Origin: Ancylobacter moscoviensis
Lineage (GTDB): Bacteria; Pseudomonadota; Alphaproteobacteria; Rhizobiales; Xanthobacteraceae
Assembly (NCBI RefSeq): GCF_007559435.1
Contig: NZ_VMBP01000003.1
Span: 186,001-250,000 of the forward strand
DNA length: 64,000 nt
Direction: 5' to 3'
The stretch's first letter is position 1; every line of letters begins with the position of its first letter. Position numbers and translations under genes: made by a program. The notes under the pieces are model-generated. The model searched no databases. It worked only from the letters and a program-made list of their open reading frames with translations, and had not been told where the DNA came from. Below, piece after piece: positions 42,581 through 61,806 of the stretch.

Positions 42581-42647
42581 CACGGTTCCGCGGCGCGTCG
42601 GCCGCGAAACCGTCGAACGGACCGGCGGCGCGCCCGCGCCGCTCTCG

Positions 42648-43718: not shown

Positions 43719-43741
43719 TCGCTTGTCCTCTCTTGTTTCGT

Positions 43742-45402: not shown

Positions 45403-46233
45403 TCAACGGACAGATTCACCTTCCACCCGCACCATGCCGCCCACGCGCGTAGACGGCGCGCCGCGCCGGATGTCGGCGACGAAGAGCAGCCGCAGCACCC
45501 ATTCCCGGAGCCGCGCCGGCACGCAGCGCCCCAGCCCGACCAGCGCGACGAGCGGCCAGGGGAACGCGATCCCGCGCGCCCCGCGATCGGCCGCGGCGGC
45601 GATGGCCGCCGCCGCCCGCTCGGCGCTCCATTCCAGCGGCCGCCAGCCGCCATAGTCCCGGCTCATGCCGGTCGCGACGAAGCCGGGACAGGCGACGGTG
45701 AGGCTCACGCCGCGCGCGGCCAGCACGGGACGCAGCGCCTCGCCGAAGGCGATGAGCCCCGCCTTGGTGGCGCTGTAGGTCGGCTGGTCCGGCAGCGGCA
45801 TGCGCCCGGCCAGCGAGGCGACGAGGACGACGCGCCCGGCGCCCCGCGCGCGCATCGGATCGAGCAGCGGCAGCACCGTCGCCACCGCGCCCTCGAAATT
45901 GGTGCGGATCTGCGCCAGCGCGTCGGACAGCAGCTCGGCCTGCCCTTCCCGGCCAAGGCTCGACTCGACGCCGGCATTGGCGATCACCGTGTCGATGGGC
46001 CTTTCCGCGTCGAAGCGGGCGATGAGATCGGCCAGCGCCTCGCTTTCGCGCACGTCGAGCGTCAGGGCGCTGACCTGCGCGCCCCGCTCGCGGCATGCCT
46101 CGGCGACGGCACCGAGGCGCCCCGCATGGCGGGCGACCAGCACGAGCGCCACGCCGGGCCTCGCATAGTGCCGGGCCAGCGCGGCGCCTATCCCGCCCGA
46201 GGCCCCGGTGATGAGGATGTGCCGGCCGCTCAT
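45403..46233 (-). CDS. RkpH-like short-chain dehydrogenase
   Basis: This 276-residue SDR has TGASGGIG near the N-terminus, NAGV, and the catalytic YSATKAG. The last 50 residues (FPWPLVALVGLGRCVPARL and WVLRLLF) are hydrophobic, suggesting membrane association, as in 3-ketosphinganine reductases and in RkpH of rhizobia. Its ATG overlaps the stop of the KpsS-like gene. In the rhizobial rkp locus the same enzyme type is encoded with RkpA and RkpG, both present here on the other strand. Reduction of a beta-keto amine made by RkpG is the predicted step; it is untested here. Confidence 0.8.
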   Translation of the reverse strand: MSGRHILITGASGGIGAALARHYARPGVALVLVARHAGRLGAVAEACRERGAQVSALTLDVRESEALADLIARFDAERPIDTVIANAGVESSLGREGQAELLSDALAQIRTNFEGAVATVLPLLDPMRARGAGRVVLVASLAGRMPLPDQPTYSATKAGLIAFGEALRPVLAARGVSLTVACPGFVATGMSRDYGGWRPLEWSAERAAAAIAAAADRGARGIAFPWPLVALVGLGRCVPARLREWVLRLLFVADIRRGAPSTRVGGMVRVEGESVR

Positions 46234-47552
46234 GCGGGCGCCCCCTCCGTCACCATGCGCATGACCAGCCCGTCCACCGCCCGCTGGATGGCAGCGGGTG
46301 CGAAGAAGCCGCCGGCGATCTGCGTGCGGGCGATGACGAGCCGGCGATAGGCCCGCACCAGCTCGGCATCGGGCCGCGGCGCCTCGCGCCAGAAGGCATC
46401 GAGGGAGCCCTGATGCGCGAGCCCCGGCATGTCGTAGGTGGCGCGGCCGAGCACCTTCAGGGGACGCCCGTTCCGCAGCGCGATGACCGCCGTGGTCGAG
46501 TTGACCAGCACGACGCCGGCGCTGGCCACCACCAGCGCATCGATGTCGCCTCCCTCGATGAAGACGACGCGGTCCGCCAGCCCATATTCGTCGGCGAGCC
46601 GCGCGATCATCCGGCCGGTCGCCGGCAGGCGGGTGTCATAGGGATGCCGCTTGACGACGAGACGTGCCCCCGACGGCGCCTGCCTCGCGAAGGAGCCCAG
46701 CACCAGCCGGGCCACCTCCTCCACCGAGCGGAAGTCCGAATGCACCCGCATCTGGTAGTCGCCTTCCAACTGCAGCGGCAGCAGGAAATAGGGGCGGCCA
46801 TCGGCGAGACGGGACATCGCGGCCCGGTCCCGGCGGGCCGCTGCCGGCGCACTGAACCAGCGCACCAGCCAGCCAGCATAGTCGGCGGCCGGATGCACCA
46901 GCGTGTGCCGCCGGTAGCGAAAGAACAGCGGCGCCAGAGCGGCATGGCCGGCGTGCCAGGCAATGTCCCACAGCGCGCGGCGGGCGAAAGGCTCGGGCAG
47001 CGCCTCCGCCGCGCGGATGACCTCCGGCAGGCCGGCCGATGCCTCCCGCACGCCCTCGGACGTACGCGGAAGGTCGGAATGCGCGTTCACGCCATGGCGC
47101 TCGCGGGTGATCCAGCCGGGGCGGACATAGCCTTCCTCGAGCAGATGCAGGCCGGCGCCGCGCGCGCGAGCGGCCGCCACCGCCGGCGCGTGATACGGCC
47201 GGCAGTCGCCGAACAGCACGAGATCGCTCACCGCTTCCTCGGCCATGAGCCGCTCCACATAGGCGGGCCAATCCTGCGGCCTGCCGCGATAGAACCGCGC
47301 GGGGCCGGGCCAGAAGACCACATCGCCCCCGCACAGATTCACCTTCACCACGCGCGCCCCGCGCCGACGCAGCGCACGGGCGAGACGCCAGCCGAAGGGC
47401 GAGGCCGGCCCCTGAAGGAACAGGAAGCAACGCCCGGCGAGGCCCTTCCCCCCGCCCCGGCGCCGGGTATCCTCGTCCATTCCGGACGACGTTCCCGTCG
47501 CCGTCCGGCGCGGCACGTCGAAGGCGACGCCCGCATGTTCCACGCGGTTCAT
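46230..47552 (-). CDS. KpsS-like capsule polysaccharide protein (RkpJ-like)
   Basis: This 440-residue protein belongs to the capsule polysaccharide export/modification family: FLFLQGPASPFGWRLARAL, LVLFGDCRPYH, HLLEEGYVRPGWIT, and later VKRHPYDTRL and VVLVNSTTA. KpsS and KpsC are beta-Kdo transferases that build the linker between lipid and capsule; KpsS adds the first Kdo to the lipid. A short low-complexity region (RRRGGGKG) precedes the domain. ATG 47552 is chosen. It is second of three genes reading leftward from 49783. Confidence 0.83.
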   Translation of the reverse strand: MNRVEHAGVAFDVPRRTATGTSSGMDEDTRRRGGGKGLAGRCFLFLQGPASPFGWRLARALRRRGARVVKVNLCGGDVVFWPGPARFYRGRPQDWPAYVERLMAEEAVSDLVLFGDCRPYHAPAVAAARARGAGLHLLEEGYVRPGWITRERHGVNAHSDLPRTSEGVREASAGLPEVIRAAEALPEPFARRALWDIAWHAGHAALAPLFFRYRRHTLVHPAADYAGWLVRWFSAPAAARRDRAAMSRLADGRPYFLLPLQLEGDYQMRVHSDFRSVEEVARLVLGSFARQAPSGARLVVKRHPYDTRLPATGRMIARLADEYGLADRVVFIEGGDIDALVVASAGVVLVNSTTAVIALRNGRPLKVLGRATYDMPGLAHQGSLDAFWREAPRPDAELVRAYRRLVIARTQIAGGFFAPAAIQRAVDGLVMRMVTEGAPA

Positions 47553-47578
47553 CGCCGCGCCTTGCGCCGTGGCGGCGC

Positions 47579-49783
47579 TCAATAGTCGATCCGATCGACG
47601 ATCTCGCCCGGTAGCGGCCACGAGGGCGCCTCCGGCGATACGGCGAGCGGCATCGGGAAGGCGCGGATCAGCGGCGTGTCGTCATAGACCAGCGGCTGCC
47701 ACTTGCCGTGGACCCAGGACAGCACGGCGTTCCAGTCGGTCGGCCGCGAGCGGTCGAGACAATAGGAAGACAGGGTCGAACGCCCGACGCCGGAATAGAA
47801 ATCCCGCATGCGGTGGTCGATCTGGTGCTGCGGATTGCCCAGTTCGAGCATCCGCCCCTCGCCGTCGCCATAGGTGGCGAACCAGGCGCAGGGGATGCCG
47901 TAGGTCTCCGAGATGACGAGACCGTGCAGGCTGGTGGAGACGATGGCGCGGCAGGAGACGATCTCCGCCACCTTGCGGCGCATGCCTTCCGGGGTCGGCG
48001 GGCAGTGCGTGTTGATGAGCCGGATGCGGTCCTTGAAGGCCTCTGGAATGCCGTAGCGGCGAAGCGCCGGCTTCACGGCGGCCTCCAGCGTCCGGTCTTC
48101 CAGCTCGGTGATGTGGAGGATGACCCCGAGATCGTGGGTCTTCTCGACATCCTTCATCGGCCAGAAGCGCGGCAGCATCCACACCGGATCGCCGAAGATA
48201 TCCGGCACGTGCATGCCGGCCGCGCGCAGCGTGCGCGCGCTGTTGGGGCCGCGCAGCGCGTGGATGTGGAACTGGGTGTCGGACGGGCGCACATAGCCGC
48301 GCACCAGCGGATCGACCGGATTGCGCTCGGCATCGACGCCGGTGCCCCAGAAATGCAGCACGCCGTTGCGCTGGTTGTGGCCGATGGTGCCGACGGCGAC
48401 CATGCGCTCGATGGGCTGGTCGAACCCGGCCCGGCGGACCGGCACGCCGGCCATGCCGGCGACGATGAGCGCACTCAGCGTATCGCCCAGATTCGCGTGC
48501 GGCGATTCCCGCGTCGTCGCTGCCCACGACAACGGAATGGATATCCGGTCGGCGTTCATGCGCAGGAGGGTGGCGACCTCGGGCGTCATCTGCGGTGCGG
48601 GCCCCTTCGGCTCGGCCGCGACCCCGTTCATCACCGGGCTGATCTCGGGTTCGCTCTGCCGCGCCCCGTTCAACGCGCGCGCCGGCGATTGGTTCGAAGA
48701 GGGCGCCGCGGCGGGAGCCTCCGCTTCGACCTCGCCCTCGGTGTCACGATCCTGCTGGCGCAGCAGGGCCACGTCATGCTGCAAGACAAGTCCCTTTATG
48801 GTCGGATGATCCCAGATGCTTCTGCCCGACGACGCCTTGAGCGGCGCCGGCGAGAAGGGGAAGACGTCGATCAGGCGATCGGCGTCGAACTGTACCGGCT
48901 CCCAGGCGCGGTCCACCGCATCCATCACCGCCTGCCAGTCGGTCGGCAGGCCGCGGTCCTGGAAATAGGCGGCGACGTGCCGGCGACCGAGGCCGAGATA
49001 GAGGTCGACGATCCGCAGGTCCGCCGGCCCGTCCGGATCGAGCTCCAGACGGCCGAGGCCGCGGGGTTCCGGCAGCGGCGGGAAATACAGGCACGGAATG
49101 CCGTAGGCCTCGGCGACGACCAGCCCGTGCATGCTCATGGAGACGATGCGCTCGCAGGCGAGAATCTCGTCGAGCTTGGCCTTGAGCGCCGGCACGCCGA
49201 GGGGCGTCACCGTGGTGATGAGGTGGACGTCGTCCCGGAACTCCTCCGGGACGCGGTAGCGCGCGAAGGCCGGCTGCGGGCGCGCCTCGTAGGAGCGGTC
49301 GGCAAGCTCGGAAAGGTGCAGGATGACGCCGAGCTTCCATTTCTTGCGGATGCGCGGGCGATAGAAGCGCGGCAGCAGCCAGGCGGGATCGCCGTAGAGA
49401 CCCGGGCGCGGGCCGCCGTTGCTCATCAGCTTTTCCGCCACCGGCCCGCTGGTCGCGTGCAGCACGATGGCGCCGTGACCGGACGGCGCGAAGGCGACCC
49501 GCCGGTCGGCCGGCGCGGACGGATTCTTCCACGGCGAGCAGCCGGTGCCCCAGACGTGGACCTCGCCGCCCTCGAACGTATGGCCGATCGCCCCGATGGC
49601 CGCCATCCGCACGGAGCGCGACTTGGCCGGCACGCGCCGCACCGGCAGGCCACCCACCATCGCCGTCATGACGGGACTGAGGGCGTCCTCGAAATTCAGA
49701 TAGTCCATGAGGGTGGTCGAACCGGCCCATCCGAGCCTGACCTCACCCTCGGCCCGCACGATATCTTCCAGCGGTGCCCGCAT
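47579..49783 (-). CDS. fused double polysaccharide pyruvyl transferase
   Basis: This 734-residue protein holds two complete pyruvyltransferase-type domains, about residues 1-325 and 410-734, joined by a disordered Pro/Ala/Glu-rich linker. Domain 1 has FEDALSPVMTAMVGG, WGTGCSPW and IVSMSMHGLVVAEAYGIPC. Domain 2 has NLGDTLSALIVAGM, WGTGVDAE and IVSTSLHGLVISETYGIPC. Both end in the same (PTDW...W-P-V...D..LI) C-terminal signature. Single-domain forms are the rule, so this is a tandem duplication and fusion; the two halves may modify different sugars. It is the first gene of the operon that continues into the KpsS-like and RkpH-like genes. Confidence 0.85.
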   Translation of the reverse strand: MRAPLEDIVRAEGEVRLGWAGSTTLMDYLNFEDALSPVMTAMVGGLPVRRVPAKSRSVRMAAIGAIGHTFEGGEVHVWGTGCSPWKNPSAPADRRVAFAPSGHGAIVLHATSGPVAEKLMSNGGPRPGLYGDPAWLLPRFYRPRIRKKWKLGVILHLSELADRSYEARPQPAFARYRVPEEFRDDVHLITTVTPLGVPALKAKLDEILACERIVSMSMHGLVVAEAYGIPCLYFPPLPEPRGLGRLELDPDGPADLRIVDLYLGLGRRHVAAYFQDRGLPTDWQAVMDAVDRAWEPVQFDADRLIDVFPFSPAPLKASSGRSIWDHPTIKGLVLQHDVALLRQQDRDTEGEVEAEAPAAAPSSNQSPARALNGARQSEPEISPVMNGVAAEPKGPAPQMTPEVATLLRMNADRISIPLSWAATTRESPHANLGDTLSALIVAGMAGVPVRRAGFDQPIERMVAVGTIGHNQRNGVLHFWGTGVDAERNPVDPLVRGYVRPSDTQFHIHALRGPNSARTLRAAGMHVPDIFGDPVWMLPRFWPMKDVEKTHDLGVILHITELEDRTLEAAVKPALRRYGIPEAFKDRIRLINTHCPPTPEGMRRKVAEIVSCRAIVSTSLHGLVISETYGIPCAWFATYGDGEGRMLELGNPQHQIDHRMRDFYSGVGRSTLSSYCLDRSRPTDWNAVLSWVHGKWQPLVYDDTPLIRAFPMPLAVSPEAPSWPLPGEIVDRIDY

Positions 49784-50445
49784 ACTACCTCACGAACTGA
49801 AAGCAATGTCGAAATAACCGACGCATGAAGCTCCCTTATCGAGGTCTTGTTTCCAGTAGAATGACTACTTTCGTTTCCGCTGTCCACACCAACGAAAATA
49901 TTTTCGAATTTGGAACCTTTTGGGCGGAAACGGGGCAAAGAGCCACTCGCGAGGCCGCTCGCACGCCCTCCATGCCGTTGCGGAACACCCCGCACCCTCC
50001 CCGCCGCTGGCATACCAGGGCCACATGCACCGCAAGAAGCAAGCGGCCGCAACGCAACAACCAATGATTGGTCACGTCGATAGAGCGGATCAATCAATTG
50101 ATACAATCAATCGGTATCATTGCACCTTTACGCTAGGTTTCATGTTATCGCCGCATTCAGATGAGTCTAAATAGACTGTCGATTGCATCATGACTCGCCA
50201 TGAAACGGTAAAAGATTAATTCGAAATTCGTTACATTCGCAGAATGGAGACATATTACTAAGCAAATTCGGTTATCAGATACCTCAGGTACAACATATTG
50301 GTGCAGTACTACATGAAAAAGTATCTAGACAGCCGTTTGCTTTTGATGCTGCAATGCACACCTCGCGCACCGTTTGCGGGGGCTATGTGACGGTGCCCAG
50401 GGGTTGTTTCTGTAAAAACACGTCGACCAGCGAAACGGGTGGCTC
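49784..50445. promoter_or_regulatory. 662-base AT-rich divergent intergenic region of the capsule locus
   Basis: No gene is supported; frames across it are short and lack codon bias. It separates the leftward pyruvyltransferase operon from the rightward synthase operon. Visible dyads are the perfect 14-base palindrome CGAAAATATTTTCG (49893-49906), ACCAAT-G-ATTGGT (50060-50072), and CAATTGATAC paired with GGTATCATTG (50096-50122). CAATCAA occurs directly repeated at 50091 and 50104. These look like regulator sites for both promoters. Confidence 0.6.
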
Positions 50446-52983
50446 ATGAATCTCGAGACCTTCAGGCGTCAGGCTGGGCACGATTTCGGACAGGCGGATA
50501 TCGCGTCGCTGGCCGAGAATCTGCGTGACCTTCGCGTCAGCGGAGGCGACGTCAAACCTGAAGAACAACTTCTGAACGCTCAGCAGCTGGCCGATTCGCG
50601 CCACAATTACTTACGAATTGCGAATGACCCGCACGTCGTCGGCGGCGTGTTCGTCGAAGACGGACAGTGCCTCGTCTGGGGCTTCAACCGGTCCGACGTG
50701 CTGAAGCCGGTCACGCTGCGCCTGGTGATCGACGGCACCACGGTGTTCGAGCGCACGACCTCGCCGGAAGCCGTCATGCCCATCCACAGCACGGGCCATC
50801 AGCTCTCCGCGCACCGGCAGATGGGGCTGGGGATCGACGGGGCCAGCGCCGCCGCGGGCCCGTTCGCCGGGCAGGATCTCTGGCCGGATGCGGAGACCCG
50901 CGAGGATCTGGCGAATTTCGTCATCGGCCTCGGCGCGAGCGCGCGGGACGCACGCCTGCATCACCTCGTCTGGCATGAGATTCCCAACGTCACCCGCCGG
51001 CTGGAGACCTCCGACGAGCCTGCCGCGCGCTGGCGCGCTTCGGTCTACACCCGCTACATGGCGAACCGGCTCGGCCTGCAGGGCAAGCTGTCCGGCGGCC
51101 AGTCGGTGGCCAACTGGATCGTCTCCGAGGTGTTCGAGGACTGGTACAAGCGCCAGGTCTTCTGCCTGACCGACGAGATCCACACGCTTCTCAGCGAGCC
51201 GGTGATGAACCGCCGGGTGATGAAGCACGAGATCAGCCTCACCCTCTTCGCCTTCTGGCGGCGGCACTACCCGCACATCGACATCTTCACCGAGGAAGGG
51301 CTGCGCCTCGTCCAGTACAAGTTCGCCACCGCGCCCTTCATCTCCGACAAGAACAACGTCAAGCTGGTCTCGGACGGGCTGCGCCGCTCGCTCTCCGCGC
51401 CGGCCGACATGTACCGCAACCGGGAACTGCCCTGGAGCTGGTACTGGCTGTTCCTGCTCGAGGACCAGGGCCTCGGCAACCGGATGCGCGAGGAGGGCTT
51501 CGCCCGCCTCACCAGCTTCAAGGAAGTGGCGCTCGACGTCACCCAGCCCGACCGCCTCTCCTTCGCCCCGCATGTCTGGCGGGCCTATTGGGGCGCCGGC
51601 GGCACGGGGGACTTCACCCGCTTCGATCTCGCGCTGATCTCCATCCTCGCCGACACGCCCAGCCCGGAGCGGGCCATCGCCGAGCGCGGCGCGGAGTTCT
51701 GGCGCGAACGGCTGCGGCACGACGTCTATGAGCGCATTCCCGAGCTCGCCGTCCTTTCCGCCGCCGGCCGCGTCGAGGGCCTGCCGCCGGCGGTGCAGGA
51801 CGCGGTGCCGCGGTGCGACCTGGTCATTATCGGCCACGCCAACGAGACCGGCGTCGGCCGCAATCTCAGCATGTTCGTCGAGGCACTTTCCAGCTTCAAC
51901 CCGCTCGTCTTCAACGCGGATGACGGCGCCTGCGTGAACCCGGATGCCGGCTACAACCCGGCCGTCGGGGTGCGTGCCCGCGTCGTCCTGCTCTGCGTCA
52001 ACGCCGACCGCGCGCCGGAGATGATCGCCCGCTTCGCCGGCATCTGCGAGGACGCGCACATCATCGGCTTCTATCTGTGGGAAAGCGACCGCCCGCCGGC
52101 GAACCACACGCTCGGCGCGCTCGCCGTCGACGAGATCTGGACGCCGAGCAACTACGTCGCCGAGGCCTATCGCAAGATCACCCCGGTGCCGGTGACGGTG
52201 GTCGACAAGGGGCTTCACACCCCGCTCGCCTATGTGCCGTTCCTCGACCGTTTCCGGCACGATCCGTCGGAATTCATCTTCCTCACCGCGGCCGAGTTCG
52301 GCTCGTCGATCGTGCGCAAGAACCCGCTGGATGTGGTGAAGGCGTTCCAGCGGGCCTTCGACGGCAGCGACCTCAACGTGCGGCTCCTCATCAAGATCCG
52401 CGAGGTCAATCCCGGACACTGGAGCAACATCGATTCCTACTGGGAGGAGATCGAGGAGCGGATCGCCGGCGACGACCGCATCACCATCGTCGAGGGCAAT
52501 CTGACGCCGGAGGAATACTGGACGCTGCTGTGGACCGTCGATGCGATGGTCTCGCTGCACCGCTCGGAAGGCTTCGGCTACGTCATCGCCGACGCGATGT
52601 TCGCGGAGAAGGCGGTCGTCGTCTCCGACTATTCCGGCTCGCAGGACTTCTGCGACGTGGACAACGCCTTCCTCGTTCCCGTGCAGCAGACGCCTGCGCC
52701 GCCGGAATCTCTGGCGAGCCGGGGCTATATCGGCCAGTGGGGCATCCCCGACGTCGAGGCCGCCGCACGGGCCATGTACGAGGCGGCCGAAGATGCCGAC
52801 CTGCGCGCCGTTCGCGCCAAGGCCGGCCAGGAGCGGGTCGTGCAGAAGTACGACTTCGCGAACTGGACCGGCGCGGTCGGCGCCCGAATCGCGGAACGGA
52901 TCGAGCGGGTCAGGCAGAAGCAGGACGCGGCGCCGGGTGAGCCGGCCGCGTCCGCCGATGTCACGGCGGACGCCCAGTCCTGA
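50446..52983 (+). CDS. large glycosyltransferase with an unrecognised N-terminal half
   Basis: This 845-residue protein has a GT-B family 4 domain at about residues 456-820 (VIIGHANETGVGRNLSMF, EIWTPSNYVAEAY, and EGFGYVIADAMFAEKAVV, an E-x7-D variant of the usual E-x7-E). Residues 1-455 match no domain I know; they include WGFNRSDVLKPVTLRLVIDG and a helical, Trp-rich segment (ELPWSWYWLFLLEDQGLG). The half is well formed with normal codon use, so it is real coding sequence. A disordered Ala/Glu tail ends the protein. The PKS gene follows after 106 bases. Confidence 0.83.
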   Translation: MNLETFRRQAGHDFGQADIASLAENLRDLRVSGGDVKPEEQLLNAQQLADSRHNYLRIANDPHVVGGVFVEDGQCLVWGFNRSDVLKPVTLRLVIDGTTVFERTTSPEAVMPIHSTGHQLSAHRQMGLGIDGASAAAGPFAGQDLWPDAETREDLANFVIGLGASARDARLHHLVWHEIPNVTRRLETSDEPAARWRASVYTRYMANRLGLQGKLSGGQSVANWIVSEVFEDWYKRQVFCLTDEIHTLLSEPVMNRRVMKHEISLTLFAFWRRHYPHIDIFTEEGLRLVQYKFATAPFISDKNNVKLVSDGLRRSLSAPADMYRNRELPWSWYWLFLLEDQGLGNRMREEGFARLTSFKEVALDVTQPDRLSFAPHVWRAYWGAGGTGDFTRFDLALISILADTPSPERAIAERGAEFWRERLRHDVYERIPELAVLSAAGRVEGLPPAVQDAVPRCDLVIIGHANETGVGRNLSMFVEALSSFNPLVFNADDGACVNPDAGYNPAVGVRARVVLLCVNADRAPEMIARFAGICEDAHIIGFYLWESDRPPANHTLGALAVDEIWTPSNYVAEAYRKITPVPVTVVDKGLHTPLAYVPFLDRFRHDPSEFIFLTAAEFGSSIVRKNPLDVVKAFQRAFDGSDLNVRLLIKIREVNPGHWSNIDSYWEEIEERIAGDDRITIVEGNLTPEEYWTLLWTVDAMVSLHRSEGFGYVIADAMFAEKAVVVSDYSGSQDFCDVDNAFLVPVQQTPAPPESLASRGYIGQWGIPDVEAAARAMYEAAEDADLRAVRAKAGQERVVQKYDFANWTGAVGARIAERIERVRQKQDAAPGEPAASADVTADAQS

Positions 52984-53089
52984 GGCCCGCCCTACCCGCT
53001 CCGGTTCCGTTGCCGTTCCGCTCGACCATATCGCCGCATGAGGCGACCGGCCTGCCGCATGGTCGGTTGTCGACATCCGGCGAAGCCGT

Positions 53090-56000
53090 ATGAGGTGCCG
53101 TTTGGATCGCATCGTTCATGGAGCGGATGCCCCGCACGCCGTCCCGCCGCAGCCGGTGCACGCCGCGGCCATTGTCGGCTGCGCCTGCCGTCTGCCGGGT
53201 GCGGCGGACGAGGCGGCGTTCTGGTCGCTGCTGGCGCGCGGCGAATGCTCCGTGAGCGAGATTCCGGCCGACCGCTGGTCGCATGAGCGCTTCCTGCATC
53301 CGGGCCGTGGCGTGCCGGGCCGCTCCTACACCTTCGCGGCGGGCGTGCTCGACGACATCTACGGCTTCGATCCCGGCGCCTTCGGTCTCTCCCCGCGCGA
53401 GGCCGAGCAGATCGACCCGCAGCAGCGCCTGCTGCTGGAACTGGTGAGGGAGGCGTTCGAGGACGCGAACATTCCGCTGTCGGCGGTCGCGGGGGCCAAT
53501 GTCGGCGTCTTCGTCGGCGCCTCCTCGCTCGACCATTCGCTGCATTTCGTCGCCGACATCGCGGCGGCCGACACGCATTTCGTCACCGGCAACGCGCTGT
53601 CCATCGTCGCCAACCGCATCTCCCACGTCTACGGCTTCACCGGCCCGAGCCTTGCCATCGACACGGCCTGCTCCTCCTCGCTGGTCGCCTTCGACCGCGC
53701 GGTGAAGGCCATCGAGAGCGGGGAGATCGACACCGCCGTGGTGGCGGGCGTGAACGTGCTGGCGAGCCCGTTCAACTTCGTCGGCTTCGCCCGCGCCGGC
53801 ATGCTCTCGCCGACGGGGCGCTGCCGGCCGTTCTCGGGCAGCGCCGACGGCTATGTCCGTGCCGAGGGTGGGGTGGTGACCATCCTGCGTCGTCTCGGTC
53901 CCGCCGGTGCGATGGGCGCGACGCCCCGCGCCGTGGTGATGGCGAGCGGGACCAATTCCGACGGGCGCACGCTCGGCATCGCCATGCCGGAGAGCCGGGC
54001 GCAGCAGCGCCTGCTCGAGGAACTCTACGCCGCGCGCGGCATCGACCCGGACAGTCTCGCCTTCATCGAGGCGCATGGCACGGGAACGCTGGTGGGCGAC
54101 CCGGCGGAAGCCCGCGCCGTCGGCGAGGCGATCGGCACGCGGCGCACGCGGCCGCTGCCCATCGGCTCGGTGAAGTCCAATATCGGCCATCTGGAACCGG
54201 CTTCCGGGCTCGCGGGGCTGCTGAAGGCGCTCAACGCGCTGGAACGGCGCGAGCTGCCGGCCTCGCTGCATCTCGACACGCTGAACGAGCACATCAATTT
54301 CGAGGCGCTGAACCTGCGCCCCGCCGCCGAACCGCTGGCGCTCGACGCGGACGCACGCGCCGCCGGCATTTCCTCCTTCGGCTTCGGCGGCACCAACGCC
54401 CATGCCGTCATCCGCCTTCCCGAGGCGCATGAGGTACCTACCACCGCCGCATCCCTGGCGCCGGTGCTAATGCTCTCGGCGCACAGCGCGGAGGCGCTCT
54501 CGGCGCTTGCGGAGGACTATGCCGGGCGGCTGGAGAGCGAAGCCGAACCGGAACGCCTCGCCCATGCCGTGGCGCATGGCCGCGCGCGGCTGGAGCATCG
54601 CCTCGCCATTCCGGCCAGCGATCCCGACGCGCCCGGCAAGCTGCGCCGCATCGCCCGCGGCGGCAAGGACGGCGCCCTGCTGCGCGGCACCGCGCGCGGA
54701 ACCGGCACCAAGGTCGCCTTCGTCTTCACCGGCAATGGCGGGCAATATGCCGGCATGGGCCATGCGGCCTGGCACGCCAGCGCCGGCTTCCGCGCCGCCG
54801 TCGACGAGATCGACGCCATCTTCGAGCCGCTGGCCGGCTGGTCGCTCGCCGCCGCCTTCCGGCAGCCGCCGAACGAGACGACGCTCGCCGCCACCGAGAT
54901 CGCCCAGCCGCTCATCTTCGCGCTGGAAGTCGCGCTCGCCCGGGTGCTGATGGTGTCCGGCTGCAAGCCGGCCGCCGTGGTCGGCCACAGCGTCGGCGAG
55001 ATTGCGGCCGCCCATGTCGCCGGCGCGCTGAACCTGTCGGACGCCACGCACCTCATCTACTGGCGCAGCCGCCTGCAGGCCGAGACCCGCGGCACCGGGC
55101 TGATGGCCTTTCTCATGGCGAGCCCGGACCGGGCCAGCGAACTCATCGCCGCCGCCGAGCAGCCGGACGTCGTCATCGGCGCCTTCAACGCGCCAAAGGG
55201 CGTCACGCTCTCCGGCCCGGCCGGCGCGGTGGACGCGGTGCTGCGCCTTGCCCGCCGGCAGGGCGTCGTCGGCAAGCGCCTCGGCATCGACTACCCGTTC
55301 CACGCTCCCGGCATGGGCCCGCTCTACGAGGCGATCATCGAGGCCCTCGCACCGCTGGTGCCGCAGGCCCCGGCGATCCCCTTCGTCTCCGGACTCACCG
55401 GCGAGATCGTCGACGACGCCTCGCTCGACGCCGGCTACTGGTGGGACAATATCCGCCAGCCGGTGCAGTTCGATCCCGCCATCCGCACGCTGGCGCAGGA
55501 CGACTCCATCGGCATCTTCCTGGAGATCGGCCCGAAAGCGGTGCTCACCGGCTTCGTGCGGGAGATCCTCGCCGATGTCGGGCGGCCGGCGACGGTGCTC
55601 GCCTCGCTGCAGGAAAAGGACGGGGCGGACGAAGACCCGATCGGGCGCACCATCCTGGCGACGCTGGTCAACGGCGCGGCGATGGACGAGGCGCGGCTTT
55701 TCGGCCCGGCCGCCGCGCCGGGGCGGATCGACCTGCCCAAGACGCCGTGGCACCGCCAGCCGATCCGTCCGCCGCGCACCGGCGAGGCGGTCGACCTGAC
55801 CGGCACCGGCGGCCAGCACCATCCGCTCCTCGGCACCCGGCTGCATGGCGACGGGCGCGAATGGCGCGGGCTGCTCGACCTCGATTCCCGGCCCTTCCTC
55901 GCCGACCACAAGGTCGGCGGCAACGCCGTCATGCCCGCGACCGGCCTCGCCGAGATGGCGCTGGCGGCCGGGCGCGAGACGCTGGGCACCGACCGGCTGC

Positions 56001-59000
56001 GGCTGGAAGAATTCGACATCTTCAGCGCGCTGCGGCTCACGCCCGGCGAGAGCGTCGAGACGCAGGTGCGGATGGCGGCCGATGGTGGCGTCACCATCGG
56101 CTCGCGGGCCCGCGGCTCGCAGGAATGGGCCGTTCACGCCCGGGGACGCGTCCTCGCCGACGCCGGCGTGCCGGCCGCCGAGGTCTTGCCAGCCCCACCG
56201 GCGGAAGAAGCGGAGAGCGTCCTCGATGCCGACGCGCTCTATGCCGGCGCCGCGCGGCTCGGCCTCGACTACGGCCCGGCCTTCCGGCTGGTGCATTCCG
56301 CCCGCCGTGCCGGGACGCGGATCCATCTCGATCTCATGCCGGCCGAGGCGCCGGAGCCCGGCATCTATGTGCTGCCACCCACGCTGGCCGATGCCGCTCT
56401 TCATGGGCTGGTGATGGCGGCCGAGGTGGCGGCGCAGGGCGGGCCCTCGAAAGCCGGCTCGGCCTATCTGCCGGTCCGCTTCGCCGCGCTCACCGTCCGC
56501 AGCGCCGCGCCGCCGGTACGGGCGACGCTGACCGTTCATCGCGCCAGCCCGCGCGCGCTCGCCCTCGACGTCGCCCTGTTCGATGCCGAGGACGCCGAGG
56601 TCGCGCGCATCGACGGCGTCGAGCTGCGGGCCGTCGCCCTTGCCGCCACGGAAGAATTCGACCGCGATTTCCGCCAGAGCCTCGTCCGCCTCGGGCCGGC
56701 GCGAACCGGGACCGCGGCCCGGATCGAGGCCTTCCTCGACGCGCGGGAGGAGGTGCCGGCCGCCGACGACCTGCTCGTGCTCGACGCCCTCGCCTACGCC
56801 ATCGCCCACCGCGCGGTGATGGCGGTCATCGGGAAGACGGCCACGGAAATGCCGGTCGATATCGATGCGCTGGTCGGCCGGGGCGCTCTCGCCGACGAGC
56901 GGCGCACCACCTTCCTCGCCCTGCTGCGGCTCCTCGCCGAGGGCGGTCTCGCCCGCCACACGCCGGAAGAAGGCTGGCGCGTCGAGGCCGACAGCGATCT
57001 TCCCGCGCCCGAGCCGCTGCTGCACGAGATCGCCGACACGGCGCCGGACCGCGCCGCCGAGCTCGCCATCGGCGCCCGCCTCGCGGCCGATCTCGCCGAT
57101 CATCTGCGCGGGGCCGTTTCGATCTCCCATCCCGTCGGCCTCATCGACCAGTGGGAGGCCGGATCGCCCGCCGCCCGGACCGTCGCCGCGCAGGCGGTGG
57201 CGCTGGTCGAGGCCGCCGCGCGCGACGGCGAGGCGCCCCTCGCCGTGCTGCTCGTGGAACGGCATGGCACGACGCTCGACGGATTGCGCACCCTCGTCGC
57301 CTCCGGCGCGATCTCGCTGGCGGTGCTGCCCGCCGACAGCGCCGCGCGCCTGCGCCTTGCCGACCGGATATCGCCCCGCGTGGGGATGACGCTGTGCGAG
57401 GAGGATGCGCTGCCGACGGCGGACCTCGTGCTGCATGTCGATCCGCGTGAACCGCTCGATGCCACCGACGAGGCGACGCGCCGCCTGCTCGGCACGCTGC
57501 GCCCCGGCGGCGCGCTGGCGGCGCTCCGCGTCGCTCCGAGCGGCTTCGCCCGCCTGCTGACGATGGATGTGCCGCCCCTGCCGCACGCCCGCCCCCTGTC
57601 CGACGCGCGAGCGACGACGGAGATCGCCATCCTTGCCGCCGCAACCACCGAGCCCGCCCGACAGCGCGCGGCCGCCGGGGGCATCGCGGCGCTGTACGAG
57701 GCAGACGCCGTCTCCTGCCTGATCGGCGAGCGTGGTCATCGGCTCGACGCCGATCCCGCCGACGCGGCAAGCGCCGGCACCGGGAACATCCTCGTGCTGC
57801 GGCTGGAGGCCGGCGACGACGCCGCCTCGCTCGCCGCCGTCATGGACGAGGTGCGCGGGCTGGTGGAGGCCATGCGCGCGGGCGGCAAGGCGCCGGCCCT
57901 TCGCCTTGTCGTCGCGGACAATCCGCTTGGCGAGGCGCCCACCGCCGCCGCGCTCTGGGCATTCGGCCGCACGGTCATCAACGAATATCCCGATCTCGAC
58001 ATCAAGCTCGTCGCCATCGACCGTCCGGCGCTGGACGCGGCGGCGGTGTCCGATCTCGCCCGCGCCATCGCCGGCCTGACAGACGAACGCGAGCTGGTGC
58101 TCGACGAGCGAGGGCTTCTCGCCGTCCGCATCGCCGCCGCGCCGGCACCGGCGGGCGAGCCGGACGCCGCCGTGCGGCTGGTGATGGAGCGGCCGGGCTC
58201 GCTCGACCGCCTCACCTGGGAACCGCAGGCGCGCCGAGCCCCCGGCCCGGGCGAGATCGAGATCGAAATCTCCGCCGCCGCCCTCAATTTCCGTGACGTG
58301 ATGTTCGCGCAGGGGCTCATCGGCGACGACATGCTGGCGCACGGCTTCGCCGGCCCGACGCTCGGCTTCGAGGGCGGCGGTACCGTCACCCGCGTGGGGC
58401 CGGATGTCGCCGGCCTCGTGCCCGGCGACGAGATCGTCGCCTTCGCGCCCGGCGCCTTCGCCAGCCACGCCACCCTTCCCGCCGCCGCGGCGCTGAAGGT
58501 GCCGGCCGGCATGAACATCGAGGCGGCGACGACGCTGCCCGTCGCCTTCCTCACCGCCTGGTACGGCCTCGTGCAGTGCGCCCGGCTGGAAGCCGGCGAG
58601 ACCGTGCTGATCCACGGCGCCGCCGGCGGCGTCGGTCTCGCGGCGATGCAGATCGCCAAGGCGCGCGGCGCGCGCATCGTCGCCACCGCCGGCTCGCCGG
58701 AAAAGCGGGCGCTGGTCCGGCTGCTCGGCGCCGACGAGGTTCACGATTCCCGCGACACGCTGTTCGCGGAACGGCTGAAGGCGGCGGGCGGCTGCGACGT
58801 GGTGCTGAACTCGCTCGCCGGCCGCGCCATGGAGCTTTCCCTGCGCGCGCTCAAGCCGTTCGGCCGCTTCGTCGAACTCGGCAAGCGCGACTTCATCGCC
58901 AATACCGGCCTCGGCCTGCGCCCCTTCGCGCGCAACCTCACCTATTTCGGCGTCGATGCCGACCAGTTCATCGCCGCCCGGCCGACGCTGGTGAAGGAGA

Positions 59001-60424
59001 TGCTGGCGGAGCTTGCCCGCCTGTTCGAGGCCGGCACGCTGCGGCCGCTGCCCTATCGCCTCTTCGCCGCCGACGACGTGCGCTCGGCCTTCCGGCTGAT
59101 GCAGAGCTCCGGCCATGTCGGGAAGATCCTCATCCGGCCGCCGGCGTTCCTGCCGACCGGAACGGCCCCCGGTCCCGTGGCGGACGCCGCCTTCGCCGCT
59201 TCGCCCGAGGGCGTGCATGTGGTGGTTGGCGGCACCGGCGGCTTCGGCCGGGAGACGGCCCGCTGGCTGGCGGAGCACGGTGCGCGCCACGTGGTGGTCG
59301 CCTCGCGGCGCGGCATCATCGAGCCGCCCCTGACGGTGGAAGGGGCCGAGATCGTGGCGGAGACGCTCGACGCCCGCGATCCCGACGCCTGCGCCGACCT
59401 TCTTTCCCGCCTCGCCGCCCGCTACGGGCGTGTCGCCGGCATCGTGCACACGGCGATGGTTCTCGACGACGCGCTGCTGCGCGATCTCGACCACGACCGC
59501 TTCGAAGCCGTGCTGGCCCCGAAGGTCGATGGCGCCCGCAACCTCGATGCCGCCACCGCCGGCCTCGACCTCGACTACTTCGTGCTGTTCTCCTCGGCGA
59601 CCACGCTGGTGGGCAATCCCGGCCAGTCCGCCTATGTCGCGGCGAACGCCTATCTCGAAGGTCTGGCGCGCCGGCGTCGGGCCGAGGGGCGTCCGGCCCT
59701 CGCCGTCGCCTGGGGGGCGATCTCCGATGCCGGCGTGCTGGCGCGCGATGCGGCGACCTCGGAGAAGCTGAGCCGCCGGCTTGGGCTCGGCATGCTCGGC
59801 GCCGCTGAGGCGCTCGATCACCTCGGCGCCTGCCTCGCCACGGCGGACGCGCCGCCGGTTTCCGTTCACGCGCCCGTCGACTGGCGCGCGGCGCGCGAAC
59901 TCGCGGTGATGCGTGGCGCCAGCTTCGCCGCCCTGCGCCCCGCCTTCGCGGAAGACACGGACAGCGATGCCGAAGCCGGGATGCTCGCGCTGATCGCCGA
60001 CCAGAGCGACAGCGAGGCGCGCGCCACCGTGCTGCGCCTGCTGAGTGCTGAGGTCGGCCGCATCCTGCGGCTGCCCGGCGAGAAAATCGACCCAACCCGC
60101 CCGCTCGGGGACATCGGCATGGACTCGCTGATGGCGCTGGAGCTCGACATGGAGATGCAGCGCCGCCACAAGGTCGCGATGCCCATGCTCGGCCTCGGCG
60201 CCGGAGCGACGCTGCAGGACGTCGCCGACAAGGTCATGCGCAAGCTGCGCCCCTCGGCCGAGACGGGCGGCGACGCGATCCCGGCGCCGGGCATCCATCT
60301 TCCCGAGGAGGGAGCCGGCCTCATCGACCGCCATCTGCGGGTTGAGCCCTCGGCCGGCGCCATCGAGGCCCTGCAGGCGCGGATCGGCGCCGAGAACCGC
60401 CGTGACGGGAGCCTGCTGCGATGA
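53090..60424 (+). CDS. rkpA: reducing type I polyketide/fatty-acid synthase (RkpA-like)
   Basis: This 2444-residue multidomain synthase has the order KS-AT-DH-(degenerate region)-ER-KR-ACP. KS: DTACSSSL with Cys194, His329 (EAHGTGT) and His367. AT: GHSVGE with Ser634 and an FH-type (malonyl-like) specificity motif. DH: His940 in DHKVGG and Asp1101. ER: GAAGGVG at 1843-1849. KR: GGTGGFG at 2047 and Tyr2182. ACP: GMDSL with Ser2346. All catalytic residues are present, so it should make a fully reduced chain iteratively. There is no thioesterase. The stop overlaps the alpha-oxoamine synthase start (ATGA), implying release by that enzyme. It matches RkpA of the rhizobial K-antigen locus. Confidence 0.93.
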   Translation: MRCRLDRIVHGADAPHAVPPQPVHAAAIVGCACRLPGAADEAAFWSLLARGECSVSEIPADRWSHERFLHPGRGVPGRSYTFAAGVLDDIYGFDPGAFGLSPREAEQIDPQQRLLLELVREAFEDANIPLSAVAGANVGVFVGASSLDHSLHFVADIAAADTHFVTGNALSIVANRISHVYGFTGPSLAIDTACSSSLVAFDRAVKAIESGEIDTAVVAGVNVLASPFNFVGFARAGMLSPTGRCRPFSGSADGYVRAEGGVVTILRRLGPAGAMGATPRAVVMASGTNSDGRTLGIAMPESRAQQRLLEELYAARGIDPDSLAFIEAHGTGTLVGDPAEARAVGEAIGTRRTRPLPIGSVKSNIGHLEPASGLAGLLKALNALERRELPASLHLDTLNEHINFEALNLRPAAEPLALDADARAAGISSFGFGGTNAHAVIRLPEAHEVPTTAASLAPVLMLSAHSAEALSALAEDYAGRLESEAEPERLAHAVAHGRARLEHRLAIPASDPDAPGKLRRIARGGKDGALLRGTARGTGTKVAFVFTGNGGQYAGMGHAAWHASAGFRAAVDEIDAIFEPLAGWSLAAAFRQPPNETTLAATEIAQPLIFALEVALARVLMVSGCKPAAVVGHSVGEIAAAHVAGALNLSDATHLIYWRSRLQAETRGTGLMAFLMASPDRASELIAAAEQPDVVIGAFNAPKGVTLSGPAGAVDAVLRLARRQGVVGKRLGIDYPFHAPGMGPLYEAIIEALAPLVPQAPAIPFVSGLTGEIVDDASLDAGYWWDNIRQPVQFDPAIRTLAQDDSIGIFLEIGPKAVLTGFVREILADVGRPATVLASLQEKDGADEDPIGRTILATLVNGAAMDEARLFGPAAAPGRIDLPKTPWHRQPIRPPRTGEAVDLTGTGGQHHPLLGTRLHGDGREWRGLLDLDSRPFLADHKVGGNAVMPATGLAEMALAAGRETLGTDRLRLEEFDIFSALRLTPGESVETQVRMAADGGVTIGSRARGSQEWAVHARGRVLADAGVPAAEVLPAPPAEEAESVLDADALYAGAARLGLDYGPAFRLVHSARRAGTRIHLDLMPAEAPEPGIYVLPPTLADAALHGLVMAAEVAAQGGPSKAGSAYLPVRFAALTVRSAAPPVRATLTVHRASPRALALDVALFDAEDAEVARIDGVELRAVALAATEEFDRDFRQSLVRLGPARTGTAARIEAFLDAREEVPAADDLLVLDALAYAIAHRAVMAVIGKTATEMPVDIDALVGRGALADERRTTFLALLRLLAEGGLARHTPEEGWRVEADSDLPAPEPLLHEIADTAPDRAAELAIGARLAADLADHLRGAVSISHPVGLIDQWEAGSPAARTVAAQAVALVEAAARDGEAPLAVLLVERHGTTLDGLRTLVASGAISLAVLPADSAARLRLADRISPRVGMTLCEEDALPTADLVLHVDPREPLDATDEATRRLLGTLRPGGALAALRVAPSGFARLLTMDVPPLPHARPLSDARATTEIAILAAATTEPARQRAAAGGIAALYEADAVSCLIGERGHRLDADPADAASAGTGNILVLRLEAGDDAASLAAVMDEVRGLVEAMRAGGKAPALRLVVADNPLGEAPTAAALWAFGRTVINEYPDLDIKLVAIDRPALDAAAVSDLARAIAGLTDERELVLDERGLLAVRIAAAPAPAGEPDAAVRLVMERPGSLDRLTWEPQARRAPGPGEIEIEISAAALNFRDVMFAQGLIGDDMLAHGFAGPTLGFEGGGTVTRVGPDVAGLVPGDEIVAFAPGAFASHATLPAAAALKVPAGMNIEAATTLPVAFLTAWYGLVQCARLEAGETVLIHGAAGGVGLAAMQIAKARGARIVATAGSPEKRALVRLLGADEVHDSRDTLFAERLKAAGGCDVVLNSLAGRAMELSLRALKPFGRFVELGKRDFIANTGLGLRPFARNLTYFGVDADQFIAARPTLVKEMLAELARLFEAGTLRPLPYRLFAADDVRSAFRLMQSSGHVGKILIRPPAFLPTGTAPGPVADAAFAASPEGVHVVVGGTGGFGRETARWLAEHGARHVVVASRRGIIEPPLTVEGAEIVAETLDARDPDACADLLSRLAARYGRVAGIVHTAMVLDDALLRDLDHDRFEAVLAPKVDGARNLDAATAGLDLDYFVLFSSATTLVGNPGQSAYVAANAYLEGLARRRRAEGRPALAVAWGAISDAGVLARDAATSEKLSRRLGLGMLGAAEALDHLGACLATADAPPVSVHAPVDWRAARELAVMRGASFAALRPAFAEDTDSDAEAGMLALIADQSDSEARATVLRLLSAEVGRILRLPGEKIDPTRPLGDIGMDSLMALELDMEMQRRHKVAMPMLGLGAGATLQDVADKVMRKLRPSAETGGDAIPAPGIHLPEEGAGLIDRHLRVEPSAGAIEALQARIGAENRRDGSLLR

Positions 60425-61806
60425 CCCTTCAGGACGGCATCCGGCTCGACGCGACCGCCAGGGCGACACTCCTCGCCCGCATGCGCCAGCGCGCCCCGGA
60501 ACCCGCGCGCCCGGCCGTGACGCCCAGCTACGACACCTCGTTCGAGACGCTTCCCGGCTTCGAGGAGTTGCGCCTCATCCGGGCGACGGGCGAGGCGCTC
60601 GGCATCGGCAATCCGTTCTTCCGCCCACATGAGGGACGGGCCGGGGCGGTGAGCCGTATCGAGGGGCGGGAGGTGATCAACTTCGCCTCCTACGACTATC
60701 TCGGCCTCAACGGCCACCCTGACGTGCGGCGCGGCGCGCAGGCGGCGATGGAGCTCTACGGCACCAGCGTCTCGGCCAGCCGGCTGGTGGCCGGCGAGCG
60801 GCCGATCCACCGCGAGCTGGAGGCCCGGCTCGCCAGCCTTCACGGTGCGGACGACGCCGTCGTCTTCGTTTCCGGCCACGCCGCCAACGTCACCACCATC
60901 GGCAGCCTCGTCGGCGCCGACGACGTGGTGTTCCACGACGCGCTCATCCACAACAGCGTCATCGTCGGGGCCGAGCTCGCTGGCGCGGCGCGGCGGTCCT
61001 TCCCGCACAACGACCTCGACGCGCTGGAAGACATGCTCGTCCACGAGCGCGCCAGCCACCGCCGGGCCCTCATCGTCGTCGAGGGGCTCTACTCGATGGA
61101 CGGCGACGCGCCGGACCTGTCGCGCCTGGTGGTGCTGAAGGAACGCTTCGGCGCCTGGTTGATGGTGGACGAGGCGCACAGCATCGGCGTCCTCGGAGCA
61201 CACGGGCACGGCATCGCCGAGCAGGCCGGGCTCGATCCCGCCCGGATCGACATCTGGATGGGCACGCTGTCCAAGTCGCTCGCCTCCTGCGGCGGCTACA
61301 TCGCCGGGCCGCAGCCGCTCATCGATTTCCTGAAGGTCACGGCGCCGGGCTTCGTCTACAGCGTCGGCCTGCCGCCGGCGGCGGCGGGCGCGGCCCTCGC
61401 CGCCCTCGACGTCATGGGCGAGGATACCGGCCGCGTCGCCGCGCTTCAGAGGAATGCCCGGCATTTCCTGGCGACGGCGCAGGCCGCCGGCCTCTCCACC
61501 GGCACCGCCGAAGGCCATGCCATCGCGCCGGTCATGGTGGGCGACTCGCTGAAGGCGGTCCTGCTCTCGGAGCGGATGCTCGCGCGCGGGGTCAACGTGC
61601 TGCCGATCATCCATCCGGCGGTGCCGCACAAATCGGCCCGGCTGCGCTTCTTCATCACCACCGACCATGACCGGGAACAGCTGGACGACACCGTCCGCAT
61701 CCTGGTCGAGGAACTCGACGAGAGCACCCGCCTCCTCGCCGCGCTGGGGTTTGCGGAGGGGGATCACGATGCGGCGGCGCGTGCGGCGCTTGGGGGAATG
61801 ACATGA
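60421..61806 (+). CDS. rkpG: PLP-dependent alpha-oxoamine synthase (RkpG-like)
   Basis: This 461-residue enzyme condenses an acyl thioester with an amino acid with loss of carbon dioxide. Hallmarks are SYDYLGLNGHP, the DEAHS motif (Asp250, His253) and the PLP lysine Lys285 in GTLSKSLAS. The family includes BioF, KBL, serine palmitoyltransferase and RkpG. A 90-residue N-terminal extension is longer than in BioF. Coupling to a synthase lacking thioesterase suggests it offloads the chain as an amino-ketone, as alpha-oxoamine synthases do in other polyketide pathways. The amino acid used is unknown. A glycosyltransferase gene overlaps its stop. Confidence 0.9.
   Translation: MTLQDGIRLDATARATLLARMRQRAPEPARPAVTPSYDTSFETLPGFEELRLIRATGEALGIGNPFFRPHEGRAGAVSRIEGREVINFASYDYLGLNGHPDVRRGAQAAMELYGTSVSASRLVAGERPIHRELEARLASLHGADDAVVFVSGHAANVTTIGSLVGADDVVFHDALIHNSVIVGAELAGAARRSFPHNDLDALEDMLVHERASHRRALIVVEGLYSMDGDAPDLSRLVVLKERFGAWLMVDEAHSIGVLGAHGHGIAEQAGLDPARIDIWMGTLSKSLASCGGYIAGPQPLIDFLKVTAPGFVYSVGLPPAAAGAALAALDVMGEDTGRVAALQRNARHFLATAQAAGLSTGTAEGHAIAPVMVGDSLKAVLLSERMLARGVNVLPIIHPAVPHKSARLRFFITTDHDREQLDDTVRILVEELDESTRLLAALGFAEGDHDAAARAALGGMT

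Follow-up and report, generated by a model that had tools for sequence, protein, structure and literature searches.

Bacteria can make long-chain sphinganines by a polyketide synthase (PKS) route. In Pseudomonas fluorescens MYb115, the iterative PKS SgaA and the alpha-oxoamine synthase (AOS) SgaB are required for C24, C26 and C28 sphinganines (Peters 2025, PMC12134224). According to that paper, SgaB condenses acyl-CoA with L-serine, which it prefers almost exclusively to glycine and alanine, and SgaC, a short-chain dehydrogenase/reductase (SDR), is the proposed ketoreductase. Companion compounds of sgaAB, heavier by 154 Da, were read there as most likely phosphoglycerol sphingolipids, a putative assignment. 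There the products count as secondary metabolites with effects on a nematode host; the main text contains no word beginning with 'capsul', 'wcb', 'rkp' or 'sulfatase', and does not seem to name a head-group enzyme. Here we analyse a 64,000-nucleotide stretch of Ancylobacter moscoviensis DNA (contig NZ_VMBP01000003.1, positions 186,001 to 250,000), referred to as 'the window', in which the same kind of PKS, AOS and SDR sit in a capsule export locus, in contrast to the secondary-metabolite pathway described for sgaABC. We propose, at about even chances, that this locus makes and exports a capsule anchored by phosphoglycerol-sphinganine.

The second system of close likeness is the rkp-1 region (rkpA-G-H-I-J) of Sinorhizobium. 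Its products are said both to make a specific lipid carrier, used in secreting the capsule, and to modify it (PMC4881576, citing Kiss 1997). The same source reports that rkp-1 is needed for secretion of poly-Kdo, a polymer of 3-deoxy-D-manno-oct-2-ulosonic acid (Kdo). In the literature covered, RkpI is described only as a transmembrane protein of biosynthesis or export. As to the enzymes that start the linker, KpsS puts the first beta-Kdo on (lyso)phosphatidylglycerol and KpsC extends it, the nucleophile being an invariant aspartate in a QXXXD motif (PMC10148158). A special lipid carrier of rkp-1 is an old idea, and the PKS sphinganine pathway dates from 2025. What appears new here is the linking of both, the assignment of the head-group step to a phosphoglycerol transferase, and the pattern in which this enzyme is swapped for others. 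We did not find these in the open-access literature, where, among the matches listed, no paper joins PKS/AOS sphingolipids with capsule anchors.

Homologues of all five rkp-1 genes lie within the window or at its edge (Table 1). Unlike in rkp-1, they form several blocks, some on one strand and some on the other, which are separated by polymer genes (pyruvyl transferases, glycosyltransferases, ManC). A preliminary description of this DNA had proposed a polyketide-derived, sphingoid-like capsule anchor from four of these genes, and it was right in outline. The four genes lie where it placed them, the PKS has no thioesterase by Pfam, and the translational coupling that it claimed is borne out by exact ATGA overlaps of PKS with AOS (60421-60424) and of KpsS with SDR (46230-46233). 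Positions 61803-61806 are likewise common to the end of the AOS gene and the next glycosyltransferase gene. The preliminary description was incomplete in that it missed the phosphoglycerol transferase and the ABC-type export genes. The latter, KpsE-, KpsM-, KpsT- and KpsD-like, follow the transferase beyond the window (stretch L082:2681-7435). NCBIfam scores are 237 bits for KpsE, 98 for KpsM and 112 for the polysaccharide export protein, plus an ABC ATPase, each below its equivalog or subfamily cut-off. Because these genes adjoin, the window contains part of an ABC-type capsule locus that includes its exporter.

The PKS has 2444 residues and, by Pfam, the order ketosynthase (KS), acyltransferase (AT), dehydratase (DH), enoylreductase (ER), ketoreductase (KR) and acyl carrier protein (ACP), with about 500 residues between DH and ER free of Pfam matches. 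Neither a thioesterase nor a methyltransferase family is among its Pfam matches. It carries DTACSSS, EAHGTGT and NIGH in KS, GHSVGE in AT, HKVGGNAVMP in DH, LIHGAAGGVG in ER, GGTGGFG in KR and GMDSL in ACP, which we take to be active-site motifs. The SDR (PF00106) shows the motifs TGASGGIG and YSATK; its putative role as 3-ketosphinganine reductase was assigned from these general SDR motifs and its place in the locus. The hydrophobic tail of membrane type once ascribed to it has to be dropped, as no 19-residue stretch of the SDR reaches a Kyte-Doolittle mean of 1.6; the tail would be at most peripheral.

The AOS belongs to PF00155 and has the lysine motif TLSK. Its identity is 77% to that of Ancylobacter mangrovi, the nearest AOS with a named source, 54% to the AOS of a Pseudomonas plasmid cassette and 51% to that of S. 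meliloti. Its product is most likely a 3-ketosphinganine-type amino-ketone from acyl-ACP and an amino acid, serine by analogy with SgaB. If another amino acid were used, the anchor would be a 1-deoxy or other base without a primary hydroxyl for a head. We find this quite unlikely. It is true that the AOS falls below the cut-offs of three NCBIfam serine palmitoyltransferase equivalogs (295/640, 274/500 and 208/670 bits), and that its best PDB matches bear names that refer to glycine or alanine chemistry, a serine palmitoyltransferase coming next. Falling below these cut-offs does not exclude serine palmitoyltransferase activity, however; SgaB, of the same PKS-coupled kind, is serine-specific, and the presence of a head-group transferase in the cassette calls for an acceptor that has a hydroxyl.

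The best NCBIfam model for the AOS is bioF, at 359.6 bits against a cut-off of 426.45, so a BioF role was rejected. The bioF-profile matches above 30 bits in this genome include the AOS itself and C5, a 5-aminolevulinate synthase (653 bits); no other bioF-like gene over the cut-off was found in the genome. A bioB gene stands beside a bioY-like gene, recognised by eye, at L195:7308-9016 (G000:C11), and with no bioF over the cut-off the organism probably salvages biotin or desthiobiotin. Service of the AOS in biotin synthesis, which the preliminary description had set against its own reading, is therefore unlikely as judged from sequence.

The fifth gene runs out of the window. The full protein has 523 residues (L082:1057-2628), and the gene start lies 627 bases past the window. 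Its only PDB sequence matches at E values up to 0.01 are GacH (5u9z/5wcx) and the lipoteichoic acid (LTA) primase (4uop). When the predicted structure of an Ancylobacter orthologue (mean predicted local distance difference test score 75.5) was used for a fold search, LtaP and GacH came first, then PbgA, LtaS and EptA/MCR-type enzymes, with sulfatases lower; identities in the fold alignments with LtaP, LtaS and GacH are 14-20%. E235, T274, D444 and H445 (window protein numbering) are identical in 27 of 27 homologues and align with GacH. These are presumably the catalytic metal-site residues of LtaS and GacH. The name 'sulfatase' for this PF00884 protein was rejected, since none of the three PDB sequence matches is a sulfatase and sulfatases stand low in the fold list. 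By fold and aligned residues it is a predicted phosphoglycerol transferase of LtaS/GacH type (hereafter 'the transferase'), which would take glycerol-phosphate from phosphatidylglycerol (PG). It shares fold and aligned catalytic residues with the LtaS, GacH and OpgB transferases; here the acceptor is proposed to be a sphingoid base.

The KpsS-like protein matches PF05159 and scores 223 bits with the NCBIfam KpsS model, of which the equivalog cut-off is 600 bits. It has the motifs QLEGD, KRHP and EEG, the first fitting QXXXD, and no meaningful PDB sequence match. This gene is the only PF05159 match in the genome, and KpsC was found neither there nor in G001-G005, the five closest genomes examined, each of which has a single PF05159 match. 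With a single PF05159 protein in all six, the classical poly-Kdo linker enzyme seems absent, though the Ancylobacter moscoviensis genome has the exporter. The locus thus shares the KpsS-like enzyme and the KpsE-, KpsM-, KpsT- and KpsD-like export genes with the E. coli group 2 capsule and differs from it in that no KpsC was found, hence no known poly-Kdo linker enzyme, and by a dedicated lipid pathway that would replace ordinary PG.

We conceived the following course. The iterative PKS would build a long saturated chain that, with no thioesterase, stays on the ACP. The coupled AOS would join this chain to an amino acid, most probably serine, and release CO2, giving 3-ketosphinganine, and the SDR would reduce the ketone to sphinganine. 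The transferase would then move glycerol-phosphate from PG to the primary hydroxyl, generating the head of lyso-PG on a single chain. Onto that glycerol, KpsS would put the first beta-Kdo from CMP-Kdo, and the capsule polymer would be added before export by the KpsMTED-type proteins. Parts of this course are shown elsewhere for homologues, namely AOS reaction with serine, sphinganines and putative phosphoglycerol-sphingolipids for SgaAB, and KpsS action on (lyso)PG; the reductase step is a proposal in print. We infer that the cassettes are equivalent, that the fourth step supplies the missing head group and that the product serves to anchor the capsule, as well as the sphingoid and phosphoglycerol nature of the rkp-1 lipid carrier. 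The sphingoid chemistry put forward earlier for this locus is well supported by the published biochemistry of the homologous PKS/AOS pair (PMC12134224). The accompanying claim of an anchor unlike the usual PG would hold for the chain; the head group, however, probably resembles that of lyso-PG, as the transferase in the cassette suggests such imitation.

The occurrence of the transferase tracks the number of strong KpsS genes. A first set comprised 48 genomes with PKS and AOS, the Ancylobacter moscoviensis genome and those of 47 of the 80 loci nearest to it, chosen mostly for long contigs, and was counted by eye with strong KpsS above 190 bits and transferase above 320 bits. The transferase was present in 22/22 genomes with one strong KpsS, in 0/16 with two or more and in 0/10 with none, where G029 has a weak 50-bit match. 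Because 10 of the 13 rows of the transferase search profile come from first-set genomes, presence in ten of the 22 is built in; the other 12 are free of it. In a second set of 27 genomes (28 minus the duplicate G416), the corresponding counts were 12/16 with one strong KpsS, 0/4 with two and 1/7 with none. Fisher p for one versus two KpsS is 4.5e-11 in the first set and 0.014 in the second, with kinship ignored. In most of the 16 genomes of the first set with two or more KpsS the two genes are side by side, and in G037 they are on different contigs. In a tree of 64 KpsS proteins, the starred clade that holds the window copy has 14 members, every one from a transferase-positive locus or genome; two further starred clades take in 36 of the 38 copies that come from two-KpsS loci. 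Since the transferase swaps with a second KpsS-like enzyme, it probably acts at the lipid end.

A third alternative appears in 13 of 113 pooled loci, which have CDP-alcohol phosphotransferase genes; in all 13, KpsS, KpsC and the transferase are absent from the surrounding 20 kb. We read the transferase, the second KpsS and the CDP-alcohol enzyme as three exchangeable ways to head a sphingoid lipid. The 13 loci are L038, L048, L050, L058, L059, L060, L068, L069, L071, L076 (weak), L078, L079 and G282, and the enzyme of L079 resembles archaetidylinositol-phosphate and phosphatidylinositol-phosphate synthases.

GacH decorates the streptococcal group A carbohydrate with glycerol-phosphate. In a similar manner, sphinganine could be the anchor with Kdo put on directly by KpsS, and the LtaS/GacH-type enzyme could decorate the exported polysaccharide with glycerol-phosphate. 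We consider this unlikely, though it deserves attention, as GacH is among the closest solved relatives and LtaS-type domains normally work outside the membrane, where the polymer is, while KpsS works inside. Moreover, genome G260 has the transferase and KpsS with no strong AOS, and its transferase lies in a capsule locus whose 19.9-kb stretch contains neither PKS nor AOS. That locus (L197, C1:782000-801900) reads KpsC, KpsS, glycosyltransferase, phosphoglycerol transferase, ManC, phosphomannomutase and KpsT/M/E. On the other hand, the transferase tracks one-KpsS versus two-KpsS loci, a lipid-end matter, and it adjoins the SDR gene in L054, L061, L063, L072, L074 and L123-L126. Phosphoglycerol-sphinganine has also been inferred in P. 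fluorescens (PMC12134224).

Phosphoglycerol-sphinganine as a capsule anchor is also consistent with the cassette in other bacteria. On the Pseudomonas plasmid pL21564-1 the order is PKS, AOS, PhyH, a two-domain PF05159 gene (KpsC type), GNAT, 'LTA synthase family', SDR and KpsS, followed by a second KpsC-type gene and Kdo-synthesis genes. The locus-tag steps of its PKS, AOS and SDR (0, -5, -30) equal those of sgaA, sgaB and sgaC in MYb115, so that, going by the numbering only, the sga cluster would be a capsule locus as well. Paraburkholderia has KpsS, SDR, 'LTA synthase family', PKS, an LpxC-like gene and AOS; Caballeronia has SDR, LTA synthase, PKS, the LpxC-like gene, AOS and an exporter, with no KpsS in the stretch. 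All five genes are found in Shinella and S. meliloti. The latter has the order PKS-AOS-SDR-transferase-KpsS, by which it was identified as rkpA-G-H-I-J; its transferase is missing from the gene table and was found in this analysis. Between the window and S. meliloti proteins the identities are 51% for AOS, 42% for KpsS and 31% for SDR, and both sets have a PF00884 transferase. The five-gene set (PKS, AOS, SDR, transferase, KpsS) thus recurs in alpha-, beta- and gammaproteobacteria, and this co-localisation gives good support to the capsule link drawn in the preliminary description.

The LpxC-like deacetylase gene of betaproteobacteria lies between PKS and AOS (L125:14913-15839, L126:14893-15807 and G577, a betaproteobacterium by resemblance), and L126 and G577 also have a GNAT-type match. 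LpxC-like and GNAT proteins may possibly serve deacylation and N-acylation of the base. Of other related systems, the wcb genes of Burkholderia are known here from papers and were not compared. The swf cluster of sponge symbionts shares the single-module iterative PKS/fatty acid synthase (FAS), but its partners are a reductase-sulphotransferase and a radical SAM protein rather than an AOS, and its authors separate swf from wcb/rkp (PMC3908369).

Association with capsule genes was examined by counting in 289 genomes of the same class, with thresholds of 350 bits for AOS and 220 bits for KpsS. RkpG-type AOS was above threshold in 13 genomes, KpsS in 11 and both in 7, in all seven of which the two genes are at most 14 kb apart (Fisher p 1.7e-8 for co-occurrence, own genome included and kinship ignored). 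The transferase was found in at least 7 of the 289, a lower bound because at most four candidates were scored per genome, and five of these seven have both AOS and KpsS. The class and phylum samples supplied 31 AOS stretches of 30 genomes; left out were G329, G065, G237, G150, G310 and G367, with lower scores, and G479, whose gene contains stops. A PKS lies within 12 kb of AOS in 29 of the 31 stretches, the two without being G167 and G481. Within 20 kb, these 29 PKS-AOS loci have SDR in 18, the transferase in 9, KpsS or KpsC in 15 and a CDP-alcohol transferase in 1. The 80 nearest loci, many on short contigs, have PKS in 78 and a capsule gene in 46. The stretch of G416 is that of L045/G030 (AOS 100% identical, same coordinates); it was dropped from the second head-group tally and kept among the 29 loci. 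At 97% AOS identity, none of the remaining sampled stretches coincides with any of the 80 loci; among the 80 themselves, L074/L075 and L023/L024/L027 are near-copies.

If the capsule neighbours were incidental, the PKS/AOS/SDR lipid would be a free sphingolipid or signalling metabolite, as Peters 2025 treats the sga products (PMC12134224). For 12 of the 29 loci this may look apt, since the 20 kb around them show neither the transferase nor KpsS/KpsC nor a CDP-alcohol transferase. A Streptomyces plasmid (L128) has AOS on a larger protein of about 1600 residues and no capsule gene annotated in the 21-kb stretch; a Planktothrix plasmid (H12) has AOS under a gene annotated 'type I polyketide synthase'. 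We nevertheless hold a free lipid to be improbable for the locus: S. fredii HH103 rkp-1 mutants are called deficient in the capsular K-antigen polysaccharide (PMC4881576), in 20 of the 29 loci a capsule gene of KpsS, KpsC, Wza, KpsM or KpsE type lies no more than 20 kb away, and the five-gene set spans three proteobacterial classes.

Several points weigh against a phosphoglycerol-sphinganine anchor, in addition to the 12 loci without head-group enzymes and the G260 locus. In the second set, G112, G210, G469 and G653 have one strong KpsS without the transferase, and G577 has the transferase without strong KpsS. In G112 and G210, of one genus, a second, weaker PF05159 gene of single-domain size lies beside KpsS. 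The transferase of G053 is on a 3-kb contig in a genome with neither strong AOS nor PF05159. The samples include relatives, so the p-values overstate independence. In the window the transferase is not next to the SDR. Comparison of the AOS with the sga system runs through the Pseudomonas plasmid AOS (54%), as a stand-in for SgaB. As LtaS-type domains work outside and KpsS inside, head-group transfer before Kdo addition needs a flip of the lipid or an inverted enzyme, and the N-terminus and first loop of the transferase are both positive, giving no clear topology. Finally, the poly-Kdo of S. meliloti 1021 reportedly has 'a phospholipidic anchor', going by the title of Fraysse 2005; an ordinary glycerophospholipid may be meant. 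Read with this title, the S. meliloti anchor may be either phosphoglycerol-sphinganine or an ordinary phospholipid.

That title, together with the known use of PG by KpsS (PMC10148158), would suit an anchor of ordinary lyso-PG, with the PKS lipid as a helper of export or assembly. We give such a helper role little credence, because, according to PMC4881576, rkp-1 makes a specific lipid carrier and poly-Kdo secretion requires rkp-1, and because a dedicated head-group enzyme would then be superfluous.

Coordinates of the genes are collected in Table 1. The GT4 and transferase genes at the window edge are convergent and overlap by about 190 bases (63056-63242), and by about 250 in Ancylobacter mangrovi (L002:12584-12830). 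In the window there was no Rfam match at the gathering score and no tRNA.

Table 1 Genes of the proposed anchor pathway and neighbouring capsule genes, in window coordinates
Feature	Position	Strand	Basis	Proposed role or remark
PKS, RkpA/WcbR/SgaA-like, iterative type I PKS/FAS	53090-60424	+	Pfam and motifs	Proposed acyl-chain maker, chain left on ACP
AOS, RkpG/SgaB-like	60421-61806	+	Pfam, NCBIfam, PDB matches, motifs	
SDR, RkpH/SgaC position	45403-46233	-	PF00106 and motifs	Proposed 3-ketosphinganine reductase
KpsS-like retaining beta-Kdo transferase, RkpJ	46230-47621	-	PF05159 and motifs	True start may lie downstream of the open reading frame (ORF) start
LtaS/GacH-type phosphoglycerol transferase, RkpI position, C-terminal catalytic part	63056-64000	-	PF00884, PDB sequence matches, fold	
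GT4 glycosyltransferase	61803-63242	+		4-base overlap with AOS
Large glycosyltransferase, GT4-like C-terminal part	50446-52983	+		Capsule polymer synthesis, role inferred
Polysaccharide pyruvyl transferase, two matched stretches	47579-49783	-	Pfam	Polymer decoration, role inferred
ManC, mannose-1-phosphate guanylyltransferase/isomerase	43742-45193	-		
Polysaccharide pyruvyl transferase	42648-44102	-		ORF start overlaps ManC; true start probably further in
GT4 glycosyltransferase	41258-42709	-		

Beyond this locus, we would put at somewhat below even the chance that many capsules of alpha-, beta- and gammaproteobacteria are anchored on PKS-made sphingoid lipids with swappable head modules, these being the LtaS/GacH-type transferase with one KpsS, a second KpsS-like enzyme, or, where the locus has no KpsS, a CDP-alcohol phosphotransferase. 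In that case MYb115 would make its phosphoglycerol-sphingolipids as intermediates of a capsule anchor, KW062_RS19780 being predicted to be of LTA synthase type and KW062_RS19770 to be KpsS. The question of which lipid rkp-1 makes goes back to Kiss 1997 or earlier (PMC4881576). If the proposal is true, sphingolipids would be built-in parts of many bacterial capsules, PKS-made sphingolipids would gain a cellular purpose and RkpI a function, and what KpsS accepts would be a head group and not one particular lipid.

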